From: Candidatus Baltobacteraceae bacterium
GTDB lineage: Bacteria > Vulcanimicrobiota > Vulcanimicrobiia > Vulcanimicrobiales > Vulcanimicrobiaceae
NCBI GenBank assembly: GCA_036488875.1
Contig: DASXGW010000001.1
Span: 124,001 to 188,000 of the forward strand
Direction of reading: 5' to 3'
DNA: 64,000 nt
Shown: in pieces, positions 40,242-42,060 of the stretch
Numbering within the stretch: the stretch's first letter is position 1
How the letters are laid out: every line of letters begins with the position of its first letter
Position numbers and translations under genes: made by a program
The notes under the pieces: generated by a model
The model's input: the letters and a program-made list of their open reading frames with translations, nothing else
Database searches by the model: none
Told to the model about the DNA's origin: nothing

Positions 40242-41243
40242 ATGGTTCTTGCGATGACCGTGCCGGCGGGGAGCGCGAGCGAACCGAAGATCGTCTTGCT
40301 GGTGCGCCTGCTCAATGCGATCGACGAGGGCGCGCACTCGTTCGAGGATCTCAAGGACCGCATCGCCGAGAACGGCAAGCGCCCGAGCACGCGCAGCCTG
40401 CGACGGTATCTGGCCATTCTCTCCGAAGCCGGTTTCCCGTGGTATTTCGATCGCGCCACCAACGCTTACCGGTTTGCGGGCGGATACAGCCTCAAGCGTT
40501 TGGATCTCTCCAACGGCGAGCTGTTCGGACTGGTCGCGCTGCGTTCGCTGGGCGCGAGTATCGGCGGCGCGATCGGCGCGTCGATCGACGATGTCACTGA
40601 AAAGCTCGTCGGCACGGCCGGCCGTACGGCGCAAGCGCGCGTGGACGCGCCGCCGCAGGTGGCGTTTCGGTTTGCGGAAGTTGGACTCGATCGTTCGGGC
40701 GAGCGCGCCTTCTCGCTGCTCTCGTCGGCCGAGCGCGCGTCGCGAACCGTGGCGTTCTCGTACCTCGACAAAGACAGCAATCCCAGCGCGCGGACGGTGG
40801 ATCCGTACGGCTTCATCATTCACGCCGGCCGCGTGTACTGCGTCGGCTACGACCACGTGCGCAAAGACATGCGGACGTTTGCCGTCGATAGCATCACCGA
40901 TCCGGTGGTCCTCGCGAAGACGTTCGTCAAGCCGTCCGACTTCGACGTCGAGCGATACGCGGGCGGATCGATCAGCGGAGTTTTGCACACCGGCGAGACG
41001 ACCGAGGTGGCGGTGCGTTTTGCCGCTCGCGTCGCGAAGGCCGCCATTGCGGCGCGCGTCGTCAGCGAGCGTCAAGTGGAGCGCGGAATCGACGGTTCGG
41101 TCGAGATCGCCTATCGCGTTGCCGACGTCGACGAGCTGGTGCGATGGATATTGGGCTGGGGCGCGCAAGCCGAAATACTGTCGCCGCCCGCAGCGCGCGC
41201 GCGCATCGCTGGGCTTGCCAAAGAAATTTCGGGGAAGTACTAA
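40242..41243 (+). CDS. WYL-domain transcriptional regulator
   Basis: About 333 aa. An N-terminal winged-helix part (about 10-85: LVRLLNAIDEG, STRSLRRYLAIL, YRFAGGYSLK) is followed by the WYL region (about 165-250), where RTVDPYGFIIHAGRVYCVGYD matches the ligand-binding core, and a C-terminal WCX extension ending WILGWGAQAEILSP. Such regulators often sense nucleotides or nucleic acids. ATG at 40242 is used; GTG at 40203 overlapping the previous stop and ATG at 40254 are alternatives. No defence genes are next to it, so the target is unknown. Confidence 0.88.
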   Translation: MVLAMTVPAGSASEPKIVLLVRLLNAIDEGAHSFEDLKDRIAENGKRPSTRSLRRYLAILSEAGFPWYFDRATNAYRFAGGYSLKRLDLSNGELFGLVALRSLGASIGGAIGASIDDVTEKLVGTAGRTAQARVDAPPQVAFRFAEVGLDRSGERAFSLLSSAERASRTVAFSYLDKDSNPSARTVDPYGFIIHAGRVYCVGYDHVRKDMRTFAVDSITDPVVLAKTFVKPSDFDVERYAGGSISGVLHTGETTEVAVRFAARVAKAAIAARVVSERQVERGIDGSVEIAYRVADVDELVRWILGWGAQAEILSPPAARARIAGLAKEISGKY

Positions 41244-41412
41244 AATAACGAAACCGAAGAGCGGAGCTCCTCGGTTCCGACGTATTCACTCACCGCACTC
41301 GCCTGTTTGGCTCCCGGGTGGGAGAGCCCCACTGACGTCGTTCGGCGGTTTGACCGGGGCTACGGATCGCCGCTCATCGCAGCGTGTCACGTGTTTGCTT
41401 CCGATCGCGAAC

Positions 41413-41461
41413 GATACGTGTGTCGCCCTTCGAATAAATTTCGAAGTGCGTGCATCGTATC
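41413..41461. promoter_or_regulatory. 49-bp imperfect palindrome
   Basis: GATACG (41413-41418) with CGTATC (41456-41461), and CTTCGAA (41428-41434) with TTCGAAG (41440-41446), share one centre at 41437 with an AT-rich TAAAT core. It could be a repressor operator or part of an origin. Confidence 0.6.
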
Positions 41462-41507
41462 ATGGCGCCGCGCGCGGAAACAAGCAAGGCTCGTTCCAAT
41501 TCACAAA

Positions 41508-41557
41508 CTGTCCACAAGATTTTGCCGTTATGCACACGTCCCGGTGGGTTATCCACC
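41508..41557 (+). promoter_or_regulatory. Three phased DnaA-box-like 9-mers
   Basis: CTGTCCACA (41508), TTATGCACA (41528) and TTATCCACC (41549) resemble the DnaA box TTATNCACA. All point the same way and are 20 and 21 bp apart, i.e. on one face of the helix. No dnaA or dnaN gene is in the window. Confidence 0.5.
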
Positions 41558-41580
41558 CATGACCGCGAACGTGCAGCCGC

Positions 41581-42060
41581 ATGGCGCTTCTAGCTGTCCT
41601 TTCAATCTTGCTTGCCCAAAGTTTCTTCGGCGGATTACCGATCGACGGGGTCCATTGCGACCGCATGGAGGGGTCGGTCGAACACATTCATTCGATGCTG
41701 CAGATCTACGATCACGGGCATGCCGTGGCGGTGCCGCAAGGCGTCGGCATGCCGCAGGGCGCGGAGTGCCTGTACTGGGTTCACACACACACGGGCGACG
41801 GTTACATCCACATCGAGTCGCCGGTCAAGCGGCCGTTCACGCTCGGACAGTTCTTCGACATTTGGGGACCGAGCCTGAGCTGGACGCAGGCTGCGGGCGT
41901 CACCGCGCCGCACGGCAAGCGCCTGTCCATCTGGGTCAATGGCAAGCCGTGGCACGGCAGCGACCCCCGCGCAATCGTCCTGCGTGACATGGAAATCATC
42001 GTTATTCAGAACGGACCGCCATTCGCGAAGCCGATTACGGCGGATTGGTCGAAGCTCTAG
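41581..42060 (+). CDS. Small exported His-rich protein of unknown function
   Basis: A 159-aa protein with a short N-terminal hydrophobic segment ending near residue 14. The mature part has many His residues in pairs (EHIHSML, YDHGHAV, VHTHTGDGYIHI), then FTLGQFFDIWG and VNGKPWHGSDP. The pattern suggests a small beta-barrel that may bind a metal, but no function is known to me. No good Shine-Dalgarno precedes the ATG. It is just upstream of hutH and downstream of the non-coding gap. Confidence 0.7.
   Translation: MALLAVLSILLAQSFFGGLPIDGVHCDRMEGSVEHIHSMLQIYDHGHAVAVPQGVGMPQGAECLYWVHTHTGDGYIHIESPVKRPFTLGQFFDIWGPSLSWTQAAGVTAPHGKRLSIWVNGKPWHGSDPRAIVLRDMEIIVIQNGPPFAKPITADWSKL

Follow-up and report, generated by a model that had tools for sequence, protein, structure and literature searches.

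The locus studied here raises the question of why one intergenic gap in a 64-kb stretch of DNA (hereafter the window, 124 to 188 kb of contig C1) carries a row of DnaA-box-like sites beside a palindrome, and whether these belong to a replication origin or to a DnaA-controlled promoter, the two possibilities put forward in a sequence-only reading of the window. The three same-orientation 9-mers named in that reading, CTGTCCACA, TTATGCACA, and TTATCCACC, were found again at 41508 to 41516, 41528 to 41536, and 41549 to 41557, their starts 20 and 21 bp apart, whereas a fourth, weaker site, CAATTCACA at 41497 to 41505, had been overlooked; it lies 11 bp before CTGTCCACA and nearer the promoter described below. 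On the minus strand, the sites are B1 (TGTGAATTG), B2 (TGTGGACAG), B3 (TGTGCATAA, the closest to consensus), and B4 (GGTGGATAA), and the 2-bp gap between B1 and B2 makes these two a "double DnaA box." The plus-strand form of B3, TTATGCACA, is the sole exact TTATNCACA within the 64-kb window. When the four sites were scored together at spacings of 21, 20, and 11, the array reached 27 of 32 consensus letters, and no other place in 786 kb of this genome, with both strands scored, exceeded 20 of 32. Pairs of boxes within 45 bp of each other, with no more than one mismatch, occur in just two places in these 786 kb, the array itself and the region upstream of dnaA.

Tandem DnaA boxes on one helical face, forming one of just two box clusters in 786 kb, would suit the origin of chromosome replication or an additional origin. 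The location of the array was compared with the GC skew of 786 kb of the genome itself and of 400 kb sampled from the relative G066. Over 440 kb of contig C1, the skew is positive for the most part, and at 165.5 kb, where the array lies, its sign is the same on both sides. The cumulative skew reaches its minimum instead on another contig, C8, at about 160 kb, and it is still low to about 178 kb, the region of dnaA (177.6 kb); the adjoining dnaA-dnaN pair sits on this contig, in agreement with the earlier remark that neither gene is near the array. Likewise, in G066, which is assembled as one 2.79-Mb contig, the sampled skew flips near 1.43 Mb, close to dnaA (1.447 Mb). No such flip is seen at the element's two copies, at 0.52 and 1.29 Mb, which share one arm. 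Moreover, many genomes hold two copies, and the boxes of every copy are in register with a promoter. The proposed origin was thus not borne out, and we deem it extremely improbable that the array serves as one.

The gap in which the array lies, 41241 to 41580, had been regarded as long and non-coding. According to our analysis it is not empty but holds a structured-RNA gene on the minus strand, and comparison of the upstream regions of relatives showed that the entire gap is conserved, beyond the boxes alone. The predicted promoter consists of the -35 element TTGTTT (41478 to 41483), of which TTG is conserved at this place, and the -10 element TACGAT (41454 to 41459), separated by an 18-bp spacer. 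It was not called by a strict consensus scan and is therefore considered weak. The predicted non-coding RNA, of about 205 nt, extends from 41447 to 41242, its likely start lying 7 nt past the -10 element, and its fold is more stable than that of shuffled sequences (z = -4.0). It opens with a 5' hairpin (helix 1, ACUUCGAAAUUUAUUCGAAGG, 41427 to 41447), in which 99% of alignment cells are paired, followed by a second hairpin (41407 to 41426) whose loop bears a conserved ACGUA. A conserved core, CGUCAGU-hairpin-AAACAGGCG (41300 to 41337), comprises helices 5 and 6, which covary and are paired in about 94 to 97% of cells. The gene ends in an intrinsic terminator (41242 to 41278) with a 14-bp stem, kept across copies by compensatory changes, and a T-rich tail. 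In most of the main copies, the hairpin 2 loop contains ACGUAU (41414 to 41419), which is complementary to AUACGU ahead of the terminator (41280 to 41285), so that a pseudoknot may form; this long-range pairing is without covariation support because it is mostly invariant.

The palindrome of 49 bp that had been singled out is mostly the 5' hairpin of this minus-strand RNA. Its symmetry is partial (16 of 24 pairs), and seven 49-mers of the window, itself included, match this value, so that it is unremarkable as DNA. The part of the claim that stands concerns the inner TTCGAA...TTCGAA, which owes its significance to an RNA hairpin that relatives have retained. A protein-binding role for the palindrome was rejected, its outer arms deriving from the -10 element and an RNA loop.

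Two other readings of the conserved gap were discarded. The distances between its conserved blocks vary by non-multiples of three, and a conserved reading frame is therefore unlikely. A cis-acting leader was rejected since the RNA gene carries a terminator of its own, is arranged tail-to-tail with a WYL gene, and has different neighbours in relatives and in paralogous copies; its own promoter, terminator, covarying structure, and varied gene context are those of a stand-alone structured non-coding RNA. On the other side of the gap, the plus strand encodes a 159-amino-acid protein (41581 to 42060), present in most relatives and with five matches in the same genome, for which no Pfam match was found.

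The structure of the RNA is supported by covariation. In a MAFFT alignment of 12 copies, which is independent of any covariance-model fit, 26 of 46 pairs show compensatory changes. A covariance model (R1) built from this alignment was then used to align 60 copies, where changes on both sides were seen in 40 of the 46 pairs, and where 93.6% of cells pair, against 36 to 46% when partners are slid by 1 to 3 columns, although fitting to the model favours the pairing figures of this larger alignment. The model matched 61 of 117 genomes of the class, in 22 of 48 genera and often twice per genome, with a best score of 199.8 bits and 197.6 bits for the copy in the window, while about half of the 117 genomes searched, the closed genome G009 included, gave no copy with this model. 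A second, diverged copy with the same promoter array is present in the same genome (G000:C4:138329-138535, plus strand, locus L115; 99.4 bits). At one locus of another genome (L041, G002:C171), the RNA gene is tandemly duplicated (1066 to 1277 and 1426 to 1631), each copy having its own promoter and terminator.

No match to the RNA was obtained among the 4227 Rfam models at E <= 10, and its homologues gave chance-level matches only; 6S RNA and other Rfam families were accordingly rejected as identities. Strongly matching named records all belong to Candidatus Eremiobacterota, and matches to the pattern outside this group are deemed to be due to chance; a Streptomyces locus reached 20.8 bits, a score that spurious reverse-strand matches attain as well. 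An earlier description was not found in the open-licence literature on Eremiobacterota RNAs and on DnaA together with sRNA. The RNA therefore appears to represent an uncatalogued family of Candidatus Eremiobacterota, whose existence, structure, promoter, terminator, and fixed array can be considered established as far as sequence comparison reaches.

How closely the array is bound to this gene was inspected with a three-box pattern, GTGNNTAA-N10-12-TGTGGA-N5-TGTG, which carries no RNA information. It gave 71 matches in the 117 genomes and none when reversed, so that, together with the four-site score, the boxes match TTATNCACA beyond chance. Of these matches, 67 lie at RNA copies, including two that the model search had missed and that were later confirmed (61.6 and 59.8 bits), and 4 lie upstream of minC. 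Across 71 copies of the RNA, examined separately from this pattern and including paralogues from other gene contexts, the start spacing of B1 and B2 is 11 bp in 68, and in all 71 B2 and B3 are 20 to 21 bp apart and B2 is 62 to 64 bp from the end of the -10 element. The TGTGGA of B2 is almost invariant; mean agreement with the consensus is 7.2 of 8 letters (TGTGNATAA) for B3, 5.7 for B1, and 6.0 for B2, the last three positions of B1 and B2 being off consensus in most copies. B4 shows the weakest conservation of the four sites, many copies lacking it or having a degenerate form. The stretch from B1 to the -35 element is conserved in length but not in sequence, an indication that phase with RNA polymerase matters. 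Judged from these alignments, the array belongs to the RNA promoter as its upstream control region.

This arrangement also bears on the idea that the array is a datA- or DARS-like locus that titrates DnaA or controls its state, the RNA being transcribed but sequestration being the point. The clustering of boxes away from oriC would suit such a locus; however, there are just three to four sites, and titration has no need of a near-fixed distance to the -10 element in 71 copies or of a strongly conserved RNA, and we consider this reading very unlikely.

That the protein binding the array is DnaA is suggested by several observations. The genome's own DnaA carries the DnaA helix-turn-helix DNA-binding domain (PF08299, 81.8 bits). 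Upstream of dnaA, 28 of 30 relatives have 9-mers of the same consensus, many with a pair separated by 3 bp, and in the two others the contig begins close to dnaA. The in vivo targets of E. coli DnaA are, for the most part, box pairs with a gap of 2 or 3 bp (PMC11317965), and B1 and B2 are separated by 2 bp in 68 of the 71 copies. The same promoter architecture and RNA might nevertheless be served by a transcription factor other than DnaA: B1 and B2 match just 5.7 and 6.0 of 8 letters and deviate at their last three positions in most copies, which makes another protein with a similar site possible. We regard this as unlikely, though less so than titration, in view of the near-perfect DnaA box at B3, the same kinds of 9-mer upstream of dnaA, and the resemblance of the double-box gap to that of E. 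coli (PMC11317965).

DnaA-box arrays were also seen upstream of minC (G000:C8:127744-127804, minus strand; loci L280 to L300), commonly in the form TGTGTATTG-2bp-TGTGGATAA followed about 20 bp on by TTGCGAGT...TGTGGAT. Of 22 Eremiobacterota genomes, 21 have one strong box or more in this region, and a pair with a 2-bp gap is often present. These sites hint at a small DnaA regulon to which control of the division site belongs.

The DnaA-controlled promoter, the other proposal of the sequence-only reading, thus appears well supported, but its product is an unannotated minus-strand structured RNA that this reading had not seen. We think it likely that the array forms part of a DnaA-regulated, probably activated, weak sigma-70-type promoter driving a structured non-coding RNA of about 205 nt that would be linked to replication initiation. 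DnaA would occupy three to four same-face boxes at about -50 to -110 and, once bound, would aid RNA polymerase at the weak promoter, so that the RNA would be made in step with replication initiation, according to how much DnaA is present or to its nucleotide state. Since the boxes lie upstream of a weak promoter and in fixed phase with it, activation is the most likely mode of control. DnaA might instead repress the RNA, or switch between both modes with its nucleotide state, as it does both at E. coli nrdAB (PMC8203912). This variant, the probability of which overlaps that of the preferred explanation, seems to us rather unlikely, given that the sites are upstream of the -35 element with 13 bp of clearance and leave the promoter uncovered, and that the fixed phase suggests contact with RNA polymerase.

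As for the RNA itself, it may act in the cell cycle, either in trans or by binding a protein. The dnaA and minC mRNAs were unsupported as targets, ranking 273 and 306 of 479 in a crude duplex screen of gene starts that ignores accessibility.

As a transcription factor, DnaA is known to act on a compact set of protein genes. To our knowledge, the cell cycle of this phylum is unstudied. It is possible, and we suggest it tentatively, that in Candidatus Eremiobacterota a non-coding RNA present across the lineage and directly controlled by DnaA, together with a DnaA-box-controlled minC, couples replication initiation to division, which would amount to a DnaA regulon with an RNA effector. If true, the replication initiator would gain an RNA output in the form of a conserved structured RNA with a dedicated box array, and this array, fixed across 71 copies, would offer a natural data set on the contact between DnaA and RNA polymerase.

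Among known systems, the architecture resembles that of DnaA-regulated promoters, such as those of E. coli nrdAB, mioC, and purH, Caulobacter ftsZ and gcrA, and B. subtilis ftsL, in having boxes close to the promoter, and that of the E. coli DnaA ChIP-seq set in its double box with a gap of 2 to 3 bp (PMC11317965, PMC8203912). It differs from them in its product, which is a structured non-coding RNA, and in its three to four same-face sites with conserved spacings of 11, 20, and 21 bp; the terms "sRNA," "small RNA," and "non-coding" are absent from the text of a review of transcription control by DnaA (PMC8203912). The datA and DARS loci of E. coli are likewise DnaA-box clusters outside the origin, whereas the cluster described here holds a fixed position relative to the promoter of an RNA gene and is present in two copies per genome in many species. 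6S RNA (RF00013) is similarly a stand-alone structured RNA of about 190 to 200 nt, but its Rfam model does not match our RNA. A separate full-length 6S match was detected at G000:C8:310502-310686 (L044) with 33.6 bits, the Rfam cut-off being 46.4, and this locus possibly encodes the actual 6S RNA of the phylum. By role, and arguing from analogy, the nearest described counterpart is CcnA of Caulobacter crescentus, a non-coding RNA of about 180 to 200 nt whose promoter is tied to a replication and cell-cycle regulator (PMC8959179). CcnA is encoded within the origin, with CtrA as its presumed activator (PMC8959179), whereas the RNA described here lies away from the origin and is preceded by DnaA boxes.
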